In this document: in pieces, positions 37,501 to 60,300 of the stretch
Layout of the letters: the number at the start of each line of letters is the position of its first letter
Numbering within the stretch: position 1 is the first letter of the stretch
Origin: Psychromonas sp. SP041
Lineage (GTDB): Bacteria; Pseudomonadota; Gammaproteobacteria; Enterobacterales; Psychromonadaceae
Assembly (NCBI RefSeq): GCF_000470315.2
Contig: NZ_CBRF02000008.1
Coordinates: forward strand, 1-64,000
Direction: 5' to 3'
Length of the DNA stretch: 64,000 bases
Translations under genes and position numbers: made by a program
Notes under the pieces: model-generated
Told to the model about the DNA's origin: nothing
Database searches by the model: none
Seen by the model: the letters and a program-made list of their open reading frames with translations, nothing else

Positions 37501-38131
37501 AGCTTCAAAAAATACGTTTAAGTTTTTAAATTGCTTAAATACAAACTTTATTATCGAATAACATTGGTAATCATTCTATACAAAAATTGATAAAAAATGA
37601 TTGAATAACCTCGATAATAAAATGATGTTCTGATTATAAGTGGATGGTCATCGATTATAAAATAGTATTTAATCACTGAATCAAAAAATACTTTAAAATT
37701 CATTTAAATCAAACAATTACAAATTAAAATATAAATTTAATTAACAAAAAACAAACTATTCACAATTAGATATCGAAAAACCTTACACTAAATTATCTCA
37801 ACGAATATCTTTTAAATATAAAATTTAAACTAACCAAAAGTAGTTATAAACAAAAGATCACTGAAAAACAAATTACATTAAAAACAAATAGTTACGATAA
37901 TTTCATATTCCTCATAAATAAATTAATGCTTAAAACTTAAACTACAAATTTATTTATACTCCAAAAACACTGTTGAATAACTTTACAACTTAAATAAAAT
38001 ATCAAATAAAAAGCACAAAAAACACCTTTTAATTGAATTAAGTTATTGAAAAACAACAAATTTAAAAGTTGGCATATTATATGCTCCATTACTATATATG
38101 GAATTATCCATTTATACGAAGGAGAGAACAC
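37501..38131. other. Very A+T-rich gene-free spacer
   Basis: About 630 bp of poly-A/T-rich sequence with no reading frame of interest. It precedes the PEP-CTERM-like gene and must hold its promoter. I saw no hairpin or repeat worth naming. Such A+T density would favour H-NS-type binding, which is inference only. Confidence 0.6.
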
Positions 38132-38665
38132 ATGAAAAAAATTATTTCTTTAGCAATAACTTCACTAATATTTTTATTAGTATCTAATACAGCATCTGCT
38201 GTGCCTATTACAGGTAGAATTGATTTTACAGGTACAGCTACCGTGGTTAAATCAGGAACAACTGTTAGTACAATTACTTTTAGCCCTTATTCAAGCGTTG
38301 TATCTGATCCTTCTCTTGTAACAGGTGATTTTACACCTGAACTTGGTGGGGCAGTGGCATTTACTAATTTCGATGCAAGCACACCACTTAATCTTTTATG
38401 GACTACTAGTAATTTCACCTTTACGATAACAAATGTACTAGTAAATGCATTTAACAGCACTCTAGAATTGAGTGGTTTAGGTACTATATCTAGCTCTATT
38501 GCAGGCTTAGATGACACTGCAGGTACATGGGTAATAACTGCAAATGGCGGAAGTACGAATGTATCTTTCTCTTCAACTACTATTCCAGCTCCAGCTGGTG
38601 CAGCATTATTAGGTTTATCTCTATTAGGTTTTGGTTTCGCTCGTCGTAACAAAAAAGCTAAATAA
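38132..38665 (+). CDS. Exported protein with PEP-CTERM-like sorting tail
   Basis: 178 residues from the ATG at 38132 (GGAGAG upstream). Signal peptide 1-23 (ends SASA-VPITG). A Ser/Thr/Asn-rich body without Cys. The C-terminus IPAPAGAALLGLSLLGFGFARRNKKA has the three-part form of PEP-CTERM signals: Pro-x-Pro motif, hydrophobic helix, Arg-rich end. The usual P-E-P is P-A-P here. Such proteins are processed by an exosortase at the membrane and often linked to exopolysaccharide. No exosortase is in view. Confidence 0.8.
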   Translation: MKKIISLAITSLIFLLVSNTASAVPITGRIDFTGTATVVKSGTTVSTITFSPYSSVVSDPSLVTGDFTPELGGAVAFTNFDASTPLNLLWTTSNFTFTITNVLVNAFNSTLELSGLGTISSSIAGLDDTAGTWVITANGGSTNVSFSSTTIPAPAGAALLGLSLLGFGFARRNKKAK

Positions 38666-39031: not shown

Positions 39032-39685
39032 TTAAATACCAATGCTATCTAGTATTTCTAAGAACACATCTTCTCGAGTTTTAGGCGTTAAGTTTGGATA
39101 CAAACGACATAAGCGGATTGCTTGGCTAAACTTCTTTTTACCTAACACACTCAAAACTCTTGTAAACAATGCTTCATCTAAGAAAAATGTTTTAACTGCA
39201 TGTGTTACTGCGTCATCTAAAGAGACGTATTGCACCCCATCAAATTCAAAACTTTCATTATCGCTATCCACTGCTAATAACTCATTGTTAATAACAAGTG
39301 GCCAGCCTTGATAATTAATACGCGCTTGCATCATTTCAAACATAGGCCATGCACTACGCTTGAAGCCTTCAAACGCACTACCTTCAAACTCTGACTCTTC
39401 TAACTCTTGTTTCGTCCAATTAGACCCGATACTAAGCACTTTCTGATGTTTGGCAGTAAGAGCTTGTTTAACAGCATCACGATAACTGTAAATAGAAGGA
39501 AATGCAGAACGCTTTACGATATTCGCACACTCTTTACAACTAGGTAAACTCAGTGCTTGGTGATCTAATATATTGATTTCGTATTCATGCCTAGGGAACT
39601 TAATTTTTTTATCGCTTGGCTCACCACAAAACCAGCAAGTATTACGATAGTTAAAAGGAACTTCGACAGCAGAGAAAGTGGCCAT
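39032..39685 (-). CDS. Protein of unknown function with zinc-type cysteine pairs
   Basis: 217 residues from the ATG at 39685 (GGGTG upstream; a GTG 9 nt earlier is the alternative). Two CxxC pairs (CWFC near residue 16 and SCKEC near 48) look like a zinc ribbon or an HNH-like metal site, but no clear HNH residues follow. The C-terminal half is helical. Function unknown. Confidence 0.75.
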   Translation of the reverse strand: MATFSAVEVPFNYRNTCWFCGEPSDKKIKFPRHEYEINILDHQALSLPSCKECANIVKRSAFPSIYSYRDAVKQALTAKHQKVLSIGSNWTKQELEESEFEGSAFEGFKRSAWPMFEMMQARINYQGWPLVINNELLAVDSDNESFEFDGVQYVSLDDAVTHAVKTFFLDEALFTRVLSVLGKKKFSQAIRLCRLYPNLTPKTREDVFLEILDSIGI

Positions 39686-39763
39686 ATTATTCACCCATAA
39701 AAAGAGCTAAGGGTACGTTTTGAATCACCAATAATCAATGATCAATAATCTAATTTCTTCGGC

Positions 39764-40023: not shown

Positions 40024-40336
40024 AGCGAATAAATATTAAAGATGTGCTTATACCAAAAGAATTAATAAGGTAATCATTCTTGCTGGTTAAAATCCCCCCC
40101 TAACTGCGTTCTGAGTTTTGAAGTGAGAACAACTATCTTCTACAACTCACGCCTTATTAGTGTTAATTTTTCCTGCGCAATTTCTGATCACTTATTTAAT
40201 TCCATTGCTATTAGTCATCGATCTGATTGCAGTAAGGAATGGTAAGAATAGTGGCAAGGTTAATGATAGGTAATTACACAAATTTCAGAACAGGGTCCGA
40301 TATGATAAAAGCTTTTCTAATACGTAAAAACAGGAA

Positions 40337-40356
40337 AGGGCAGCCGAAGCTGCCCT
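40337..40356 (-). terminator. Terminator of the CsrB-like RNA
   Basis: AGGGCAGC-TTCG-GCTGCCCT on the minus strand, with the very stable UUCG loop, then TTTCCTGTTTTT. The terminal T tract is interrupted, but the stem is strong. Confidence 0.8.
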
Positions 40357-40569
40357 AATTTAGTCACACTATCAAATCCATGATAGAAGTTGCTCCATGC
40401 AATAAATCCATTTGACTACTGCCATACTAGGCATCCTCTTCCCAAATCCTTTGAGCTTCTTCCTTGTTTCATATCCTTATCCGATAAACATCCAGTTCAT
40501 CAATCCAACATCCTGCTGGCTTCTTCCATGACACATCCATATTTAATAAACATCCTGCTTATTAACTGC

Positions 40570-41000
40570 TCCCTATCCTTGGAAGGTGTCCTTTTTACAT
40601 CCTGTAATATCTTCCGTGCTCTTCCTTAAATGATAAACATCCTGCTTATCTAACTCCAGTCCTTGAAGCGTCCTTATTACGTCCTGTAATATCTTCCGTG
40701 TTCTTCCTTAACGATAAACATCCTGCTTATCTAACTCCATCAACCCTTGAAGCGTCCTTATTACGTCCTGTAATATCTTCCGTGTTCTTCCTTAACGATA
40801 AACATCCTGCTTATCTAACTCCAATCCTTGAAGCGTCCTTATTACGTCCTGTAATATCTTCCTTGTTCTTCCTTAACGATAAACATCCTGCTTATCTAAC
40901 TCCAATCCTTGAAGCGTCCTTATTACGTCCTGTAATATCTTCCGTGTTCTTCCTTAACGATAAACATCCTGCTTATCTAACTCCAATCCTTGAAGTGTCC
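40570..41000 (-). repeat. 81-nt tandem repeats inside the CsrB-like RNA
   Basis: The anchor aacatcctgc starts at 40636, 40717, 40801, 40882 and 40963: spacings 81, 84, 81 and 81 nt. Units are almost identical; one has a 3-nt insertion. More diverged units flank both sides (40487, 40549). Each unit supplies about seven GGA motifs. Confidence 0.92.
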
Positions 41001-41350
41001 TTTTATCATCCTGATAGGATAAGTAATCTCTATTTACCCTTTAACAACATCCTGTTGTTTCCTTGCTGTCCATTGCCGATTTACATCCTATAAATCATCT
41101 ACGGTCCTTGTTTGCGGAAGAGATAATACGATGCATTTATTAAATAAAACCCAATAAATAAGAAATATATAGCCAACTAAGTGAACAAAAAACAAACTTA
41201 CTATTTATTTTCAATAACTTAGTTATTACTTTTATTTTTTTTATGTCTGAAATGAGTAATTTAAAGTGAGGATCTACTACGTTGCCCATGGTCGATCTCG
41301 CACAAAATTAAATTGACCTAAATTTAAGGTTGAGATAAATAGGGAAGAAT

Positions 41351-41366: not shown

Positions 41367-41568
41367 AAAGAGACAGTGAAAATATTATCAAAAGAGGAAA
41401 ATAAAAGCTGACTAGATGATTATTTTGTAAATAATCACTGTTCCATTAAAGATGTTATCAATAATGGTCAAAAAACAGACAACAAGCTTATAAAAGAATG
41501 AACTAAGCATGGTATTTGATACAATTTCGCATTATATTCACACTTTCTTTATACCTCAGGTTATTACT

Positions 41569-42849
41569 ATGACAGTTTATGCCACCTTTTGTTTCCTCGC
41601 TGCAGCAGCAATGTTAATTACCTTCGTTAATAGTAAATTAGGTAAATGGCAAAATACCATTGCTATCACCGCTGGATCGTTATTATTATCACTGATTATT
41701 GTTATTGCAGGTAAAAATGGCTTTACTCAATTACGAGAAATAGCCGTTACTCAACTTACAGAAATAGATTTTGAACATTTCTTATTAAATGGCTTATTAG
41801 GTTTCTTGTTATTTGCAGGTGGTTTAGGCATTAAATTAGAAAGCTTAAAAGATCAAAAGTGGGAAATCACCATTCTTGCTTTAGCTGCAACACTCTTTTC
41901 TACTTTCTTTGTAGGCTTCGCGTTGTACTATATTTGCCAACTTATCGGCTTACCTCTCGATCTCATTTATTGTTTATTATTTGGCTCATTAATATCACCT
42001 ACCGACCCTATCGCAGTATTAGCAATTGTTAAGAAACTAGATGCTCCCAAAAGAATATCAACTCAAATTGAAGGTGAGTCATTATTCAATGATGGGTTTG
42101 GGTTAGTTATTTTTGTTACTTTATTTAATATCGCATTTTCTGGACAACCATTAACAGTAGAAAGTGTTTCGATGTTATTTCTACATGAAGCTATTGGCGG
42201 TATCGTTTATGGGTTTGCACTTGGACTATTGTTCCATTACCTAATAAGTGCAACAGATGATCACGCAATGGAACTCTTACTTACTATTGGCGTACCGACG
42301 GCTGGATATGTCTTTGGTGAAATGATTGGTGTATCTGCTCCACTTGCTATGGTTGTTGCAGGTATCATGATTGGTAATTGGACCAGAAAAAATGGATTCT
42401 CTAAAGAAAGTAAAGCTCAATTGGACCATTTTTGGGAATTAGTTGATGAATTCTTAAATGGTATATTGTTCCTATTAATTGGCTTAAGTATGTTGCAATT
42501 CAGCTTCTATAAAGAGGATTGGATTATTATGCTTATTGCCATTCCTTTAGTCCTGTTAGCGCGTTACTTAAGTGTGCGTTTAGCTTATGTTGGTTTTAAC
42601 CGATTTCGTAGCTATAACCCATACTCAGTACGAATTTTAACGTGGGGTGGATTACGAGGTGGACTTGCTTTAGCAATGGCAATGGCTGTACCTGCTGGTG
42701 TATGGGTTCTACCTGAAAAAAATATTGATGTGCGTGAAATCATCTTAGTGATGACTTATGGTGTTGTGTTATTTTCAATACTCGTACAAGGCTCTAGTAT
42801 TGTGCCGTTAATTAATAAAGCGAAAGATTGGCAAAACAAAAACGAGTAA
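41569..42849 (+). CDS. CPA1-type Na+/H+ antiporter (NhaP-like)
   Basis: 426 residues from the ATG at 41569 (AGG 10-12 nt upstream). An ATG at 41509 would add 20 residues but has no ribosome site. About 12 membrane helices. CPA1 features: SLISPTDPIAVLAIV, EGESLFNDGFGLVIF (the ND pair), and GGLRGGLALAMAMAVP near the C-terminus. It exchanges cytoplasmic Na+ for protons, which fits a marine host. Confidence 0.92.
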   Translation: MTVYATFCFLAAAAMLITFVNSKLGKWQNTIAITAGSLLLSLIIVIAGKNGFTQLREIAVTQLTEIDFEHFLLNGLLGFLLFAGGLGIKLESLKDQKWEITILALAATLFSTFFVGFALYYICQLIGLPLDLIYCLLFGSLISPTDPIAVLAIVKKLDAPKRISTQIEGESLFNDGFGLVIFVTLFNIAFSGQPLTVESVSMLFLHEAIGGIVYGFALGLLFHYLISATDDHAMELLLTIGVPTAGYVFGEMIGVSAPLAMVVAGIMIGNWTRKNGFSKESKAQLDHFWELVDEFLNGILFLLIGLSMLQFSFYKEDWIIMLIAIPLVLLARYLSVRLAYVGFNRFRSYNPYSVRILTWGGLRGGLALAMAMAVPAGVWVLPEKNIDVREIILVMTYGVVLFSILVQGSSIVPLINKAKDWQNKNE

Positions 42850-59860: not shown

Positions 59861-59962
59861 TATTTTTAATGACACGTAAACATAGAAATAAAGCATCCGC
59901 CTCCAAACCAAATATACCAATGAATAACGTCAATCCTAGTGTTTTAAATTACCAGTGAAGTT

Positions 59963-60300
59963 AGTTTGACTAAAAACACTGTAAGCTAAAGCATGCGCCC
60001 AAGGTCAACACCATTGATAGATGCATCTGCCTTTAATGCTTTGAACTTTACACAAAGGCTAGTTTGACTAAAAACACTGCAAGCTAAAGCATGCGCCCCA
60101 AGGTCAACACCATTAATAGATACATCTGCCTTTAATGCTTTGAACTTTACACAAAGACTAGTTTTACTAAAAACATTGCAAGCTAAAGCATGCGCCCAAG
60201 GTCAATACCTTTAATAGATGTACCTGTCTTTAATGCTTTGAACGTTACACAAAGGCTATTTTTACTAAAAACGCTGCCAACTAAAGCATGTGCTAAGGTA
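59963..60300. repeat. 98/99-bp tandem repeat, 3.4 copies
   Basis: The anchor agtttgactaaaaac recurs at 59963, 60061, 60160 and (diverged) 60258. Each unit contains AAGCTAAAGCATGC and ATGCTTTGAACTT, which could pair. Single-base length changes break all frames, so it is not a coding repeat now. It lies in the 877-bp spacer between the lyase and manA. Confidence 0.85.

Follow-up and report, generated by a model that had tools for sequence, protein, structure and literature searches.

A predicted CsrB-type RNA gene enlarged by a tandem array of GGA-hairpin modules in Psychromonas sp. SP041

Results

Organization of the locus

We analysed a 64,000-nt stretch of the genome of Psychromonas sp. SP041 (positions 1 to 64,000 of contig NZ_CBRF02000008.1; the window), in which an earlier note, made from the sequence alone, had placed a very long CsrB-like RNA on the minus strand at 40326..41116. 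The features relevant to this locus are the following:

39032..39694, minus strand: conserved protein with a CWFCGEPSDKK motif, downstream neighbour and synteny marker (10 of 11 homologous loci)
40325..41116, minus strand: predicted CsrB-type RNA gene of about 780-790 nt with 58 GGA, from GGA density, RF00018 matches and homologues
T-rich stretch past the terminator, minus strand: predicted 3' end
40337..40356, minus strand: predicted intrinsic terminator hairpin with a TTCG loop, then a T-rich tail
40594..41002, minus strand: tandem array of five units (7, 7, 7, 6 and 7 GGA), from repeat detection and in-register cutting
41002-40922, minus strand: unit 1, 81 nt, 7 GGA
40921-40841, minus strand: unit 2, 81 nt, 7 GGA
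40840-40760, minus strand: unit 3, 81 nt, 7 GGA
40759-40676, minus strand: unit 4, 84 nt, 6 GGA
40675-40594, minus strand: unit 5, 82 nt, 7 GGA
near 41115, minus strand: predicted 5' end, at a conserved GCAAAC start motif
41123..41128, minus strand: possible -10 element TATTAT directly before the start motif, read from the sequence and similar in most homologues
41287..41304, minus strand: candidate UvrY/GacA-type site, centred 180 nt before the predicted start, with 4 mismatches to the Salmonella csrC site
41509..42849, plus strand: sodium/hydrogen exchanger (PF00999), divergent upstream neighbour and synteny marker (8 of 11 loci)

Counting of GGA triplets in 40326-41116 gave 58 on the minus strand versus 3 on the plus strand. 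By comparison, 791-base minus-strand segments taken off the locus throughout the 64-kb window (n = 1233, step 50) contained a mean of 5.4 and a maximum of 12, and base shuffles of the region itself (n = 1000) a mean of 21.4 and a maximum of 36. A simple scan located 21 of the 58 triplets within loops of 4-8 nt closed by at least five pairs, and 27 when at least four pairs were accepted. The longest open stretch on the sense strand spans 44 codons, and the predicted transcript closes with a TTCG-loop hairpin (40356-40337) whose stem recurs in the eight aligned single-unit homologues. Abundant GGA in short hairpin loops, a non-coding sequence and an intrinsic terminator, all found here, are traits of the CsrB-type antagonist RNAs of Csr/Rsm systems. 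Tandem-repeat detection delimited a repeated region at 40546-41002 (period 81, 5.5 copies, 92% match), in which units 1-3 differ at 1-2 columns. The earlier note had described about 58 minus-strand GGA triplets lying in loops of short stems, the lack of a protein frame, a UUCG-capped terminator and five near-identical copies of 81 to 84 nt; these observations were reproduced, with exactly 58 triplets and units of 81, 81, 81, 84 and 82 nt, and its coordinates are right within a few bases.

The downstream CWFCGEPSDKK protein had no Pfam match; it is highly conserved and occurs also in Vibrio, Aliivibrio, Photobacterium and Shewanella. Other features were noted elsewhere in the window: a 297-bp tandem repeat (361-1207; 2.9 copies, 95% match) within a long minus-strand frame that extends past the window edge, an arrangement like that of large repeat proteins; a 98-bp tandem repeat (59962-60290; 3.3 copies, 90% match) between two genes and without a long frame; and a small secreted-looking protein (38069-38665) with the C-terminal end PAPAGAALLGLSLLGFGFARRNKKAK, which we take to recall a PEP-CTERM sorting tail.

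Assignment to the CsrB family

A scan with the Rfam model RF00018, which the earlier note had proposed as a check, returned no match at the locus at the gathering cut-off of 71 bits. Under permissive settings, three significant minus-strand matches were obtained (51.6, 43 and 23.7 bits; E = 8e-13, 3e-10 and 2e-4), so that the scan agreed with the proposal in significance but not at the cut-off. The model has 356 positions, and the array is too long for it to span. The same note had regarded a genome without CsrA as fatal to its reading; one CsrA match (88.9 bits) was identified, with residues L4 and R44, which are named as critical (PMC7652899). A single UvrY was also present (403.5 bits vs a cut-off of 280), the pair of CsrA and UvrY in the genome being a further trait of the class.

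This genome also has a pair of canonical CsrB genes, adjacent to each other on another contig (G000:C16). They measure 378 and 377 nt, contain 23 and 24 GGA and no array, and score 73.1 and 70.4 bits against RF00018. The RNA gene is 82-83% identical to them across about 171 nt of the 3' end, and it shares with them the terminator stem and a far-upstream UvrY-type site. With the CsrB and CsrC RNAs of E. coli and Salmonella (RF00018) it has in common GGA in short hairpin loops, CAGGAUG-type repeats, the absence of a reading frame, an intrinsic terminator and a UvrY-type site about 180 bp upstream. Unlike these RNAs, it contains five near-identical 81-nt modules and scores under the RF00018 cut-off. 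E. coli CsrB and CsrC have 22 and 14 GGA, respectively (PMC11882849), against 58 in the Psychromonas gene, which is about twice as long as CsrB, in line with the twofold length and nearly threefold GGA number given in the earlier note.

Upstream control region

Analysis of the upstream region revealed an 18-nt UvrY-type site centred at -179 or -180 from the start motif in all 11 homologous loci, differing from the Salmonella csrC site at 2 to 4 positions; no other site within 4 mismatches of that sequence was found in the 64-kb window. In the two canonical CsrB genes the corresponding site lies at -178, with 1 and 2 mismatches, and the UvrY site of E. coli csrB is centred at -183/-182 (PMC4682653). 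Judged from its sequence, the candidate has the far-upstream placing typical of UvrY/GacA-type sites of CsrB-type antagonist RNAs, its match to the E. coli csrB palindrome being poor (7 mismatches). A consensus promoter scan gave no site on the minus strand and one on the plus strand, fewer than in shuffles, and the proposed promoter therefore rests on conservation and position.

Conservation, covariation and strand

Among the eight single-unit homologues, GGA columns were more often identical (0.945-0.951) than other columns (0.833-0.842), a difference reached by none of the circular mask shifts made with three reference rows (0/447, 0/444 and 0/449). Covariation was assessed over the same eight aligned homologues with 14 hairpins taken from one single-unit sequence. 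In these hairpins 96.8% of the cells were paired, as compared with 35-46% after sliding the partners by 1-3 columns; 10 pairs had changed on both sides, a number matched in 1 of 500 shuffles, and the covariation score was reached in 0 of 500. The number of further pair types was not above that of shuffles (317 of 500 were as high).

Folding energy was of no power to pick the strand, since both strands fold well relative to 20 shuffles (z = -6.2 for the RNA strand and -5.9 for its complement), and the balance of G-U and A-C pairs was therefore taken as the strand test. At pairs with a Watson-Crick alternative, G-U combinations occupied 52 cells in 20 pairs versus 4 cells in 2 pairs for A-C, an excess consistent with a minus-strand RNA. 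Altogether, the significant RF00018 matches, although sub-threshold, the presence of CsrA and UvrY, the canonical paralogues with a similar 3' end, the UvrY-type site at the expected distance, the conservation of GGA and the stem covariation across homologues lend good comparative support to the conclusion that the locus is a CsrB-type RNA gene, as the earlier note had suggested.

Unit number across Psychromonas

A DNA search of 24 genomes of the genus gave matches in all of them, many to the canonical paralogues; with RF00018, matches at E up to 0.001 were obtained in 23 of the 24, and 12 of the 24 passed the cut-off. The long homologue was recognized in 10 genomes, representing 10 species, at 11 loci, two of them in genome G020. 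The second G020 homologue (L061, G020:C76) is located on a 3.9-kb contig, without the adjoining CWFCGEPSDKK protein or exchanger. The locus of Psychromonas sp. SP041 has five units (predicted length 779 nt, 58 GGA), that of G016 six units (859 nt, 64 GGA) and that of G023 two units (522 nt, 35 GGA), and the remaining eight loci have one unit each (409-457 nt, 25-31 GGA). For six of these eight, the unit rule recovered a single unit of 77-83 nt; a unit boundary escaped it in G017 and G003, which yielded one unit each, of 82 and 81 nt, under a relaxed rule. The three expanded species formed a clade (100/99) in a tree of 12 rows built from the downstream gene. The comparison of repeat number across related genomes that had been proposed earlier thus gave 1, 2, 5 or 6 units at the same locus; the suggestion that copy number could vary among strains holds for related species, the level at which the comparison was made.

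The single unit of several homologues is flanked by AAGGACACTTC and AAGGACACCTTCC, a short direct repeat that could have been the seed of the first duplication. One variant of the unit is marked by an insertion close to its first hairpin GGA; it is the fourth of the five units in SP041, the second of six in G016 and the second of two in G023. Since this variant is common to the three expanded species, at least two units are older than their split, and later gains or losses of units would so have taken place on different sides of it. Units 3-5 of G016 differ at 1-3 columns; the near identity of these units, and of units 1-3 in SP041, fits a later lineage-specific duplication. The recent expansion that the earlier note had claimed is consequently supported by the near-identical units, but the shared variant indicates that it was not purely recent.

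Arrays in other GGA-dense loci

One rule (GGA density limit 0.045) applied to the loci fetched, with a few protein loci left out, defined 72 distinct GGA-dense clusters, which are not a fair sample of such loci. The G016 homologue (64 GGA) and the SP041 gene (58) ranked highest among them, followed by clusters with 47, 44, 42 and 41. An internal tandem array with a period of at least 30 was detected in 21 of the 72. Ten of these belong to Psychromonas, three at the SP041-type locus (units of 81-85 nt) and seven elsewhere, with units of 153, 159, 133, 85, 90, 57 and, weakly, 63 nt in about 2-3 copies. Psychromonas loci of Csr type with other arrays include L015 (G022), L019 (G002), L006 and L030 (G007), L070 (G011) and L021 (G008).

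Eleven further array clusters come from genus g38 (family f7, same order), in 10 genomes with a match out of 22 searched; these loci were chosen for fetching because two g38 genomes had already shown arrays. The arrays are composed of 49-52-nt GGA-hairpin units in 3.1-7.4 copies (loci L157, L158, L170-L174 and L176-L179, from G318, G071 and eight other genomes). A palindrome of the TGTGAGATATATCTCACA type lies 148-289 nt before the first dense GGA in the nine g38 loci tested (9/9), exact in eight and with one change in the ninth. We regard these loci, which would encode predicted Csr-type RNAs, as a separate case of array expansion. A third genus is represented by G107:C1 (L159), where the predicted Csr-type RNA is about 679 nt long and contains 47 GGA, and where a UvrY-like site has a single mismatch. 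By eye, L159 shows a large internal duplication and may stem from the fusion of two genes. From these comparisons, Csr-type RNAs thus seem to have grown in tandem more than once, and the predicted SP041 RNA gene is extreme but not alone in size and array.

In Photobacterium galatheae, a GGA cluster near the same flanking gene (L141) was dropped as a candidate because it looks coding; its density (0.04507 vs the limit of 0.045) keeps it within the 72 clusters. An order-wide survey for three close AGGATG motifs gave matches in 138 of 394 genomes, and 12 stretches from 9 genomes with Csr-like matches were fetched. In ten genomes inspected among the matches listed, most matches looked like coding sequence or other simple repeats, and the counts alone are therefore no evidence of Csr RNAs. 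With stricter filters, an RF00018 survey of the order gave matches in 140 of 247 genomes; it cannot rank lengths, since it returned 2 matches in the SP041 genome vs 4 in the direct search.

Discussion

The new element of this work is a CsrB-type RNA gene, predicted from sequence, that falls under the RF00018 cut-off and is enlarged by tandem duplication of one GGA-hairpin module. No description of a tandem-module array inside a Csr RNA was found in the literature searched, most subscription papers being outside its reach. Pseudoalteromonas fuliginea likewise has several marine cold-water Csr RNAs per genome; Pf1, Pf2 and Pf3 differ from the gene studied here in their 25, 21 and 9 GGA, and an array is not mentioned in the accessible part of that article (PMC11882849). 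The Pseudomonas rsmX genes also amplify binding capacity through duplication, and GGA number has been proposed to track RNA stability; there whole genes are duplicated, whereas in Psychromonas the duplicated modules lie inside one predicted transcript (PMC7911923). In Alteromonas, three small RNAs are reported to arise from a 404-nt intergenic region (PMC5864184).

We consider it highly probable that the locus encodes a minus-strand CsrB-type RNA, activated by UvrY and enlarged in tandem as a sink for CsrA. Its architecture, homology to canonical CsrB, conservation, covariation, likely strand and differences in copy number between species are observed; its transcription, UvrY control, CsrA binding and dose effect we infer. 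The response regulator UvrY would switch on the RNA from the site about 180 bp upstream, and the intrinsic terminator would end the non-coding transcript. The GGA-loop hairpins would bind CsrA dimers and keep CsrA off mRNAs. CsrA dimers can connect two GGA sites over distances of 10 to 63 nt, with an optimum at 18 (PMC7652899); the three hairpin GGA of a unit are spaced 20 and 39 nt apart, with the first of the next unit 22 nt on, and these spacings could allow a dimer to link sites of one unit or of two neighbouring units. In one Psychromonas clade, the internal 81-nt module, with about 7 GGA of which three lie in hairpin loops, was duplicated in tandem, which would have increased the number of potential sites on each transcript from about 30 to 58. 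Provided that binding is proportional to GGA number, each transcript would hold roughly twice as much CsrA as a single-unit homologue. The 3' end of E. coli CsrB contains an RNase E site and CsrA sites that guard it (PMC5027483); with the array upstream of the conserved 3' module, capacity could rise while turnover control remained untouched.

The same gene might carry its array through neutral slippage, the 81-bp repeats recombining and their number having no regulatory meaning, with transcription and RNase E turnover holding the total CsrA-binding capacity constant. Near-identical repeat units recombine readily, unit number varies among close species while the flanks are unchanged, and the two further CsrB genes of the genome could buffer any change. 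Against neutrality, 6-8 GGA are kept in every unit of the two long arrays, and other Csr loci, as well as a second genus, also have arrays, although both facts are also compatible with it. We regard neutral slippage as a serious possibility that falls somewhat short of probable.

The unit count rests on a genome assembly of 121 contigs, and this fragmentation, together with the distance of only 1-2 bases between units 1-3, would favour an assembly artefact. We consider this unlikely, given that the units have distinguishing differences and that the sister species G016, assembled in 2 contigs, has six units at the same place. Since short-read errors generally merge the copies of arrays of this kind, more than five units could be present. 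A decayed or silent extra copy, to which the low RF00018 scores and the other CsrB genes might point, is very improbable, as homologues have kept the upstream site, the start motif, the GGA columns and the terminator. Hardly credible, and rejected here, is a plus-strand repeat protein with 27-residue repeats: the plus-strand frame is open for 161 codons at the locus and 207 in G016, and units of 81 and 84 nt preserve frame, but a stop-free 81-nt unit remains open whatever its copy number, the last unit at the locus has 82 nt, the frame is broken in G023 (second unit of 85 nt, longest plus-strand open stretch 80) and short in the eight single-unit homologues (62-133), and the signals from GGA, hairpins and G-U pairs are characteristic of an RNA on the minus strand.

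To return to the proposed UvrY-activated, tandem-enlarged RNA, CsrA is a global regulator checked by sponge RNAs, which raises the quantitative question of how the strength of a sponge depends on its number of sites. Natural relatives with 1, 2, 5 and 6 copies of one module at the same place offer a ready-made dose series for it. That arrays are found in further Csr loci and a second genus as well suggests module duplication as a general route of growth of Csr RNAs. Such arrays score poorly under a length-fixed Rfam model and may be overlooked for that reason. We tentatively propose, as an idea that is possible rather than probable, that Csr antagonist RNAs can hold an evolvable internal array whose copy number sets the CsrA-binding capacity per transcript, and that this organization arose more than once. 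If so, arrays of different units would have arisen separately, with 81 nt in Psychromonas and 49-52 nt in the second genus, and unit slippage would let copy number shift fast, perhaps within populations, providing a tuning knob for a global regulator.
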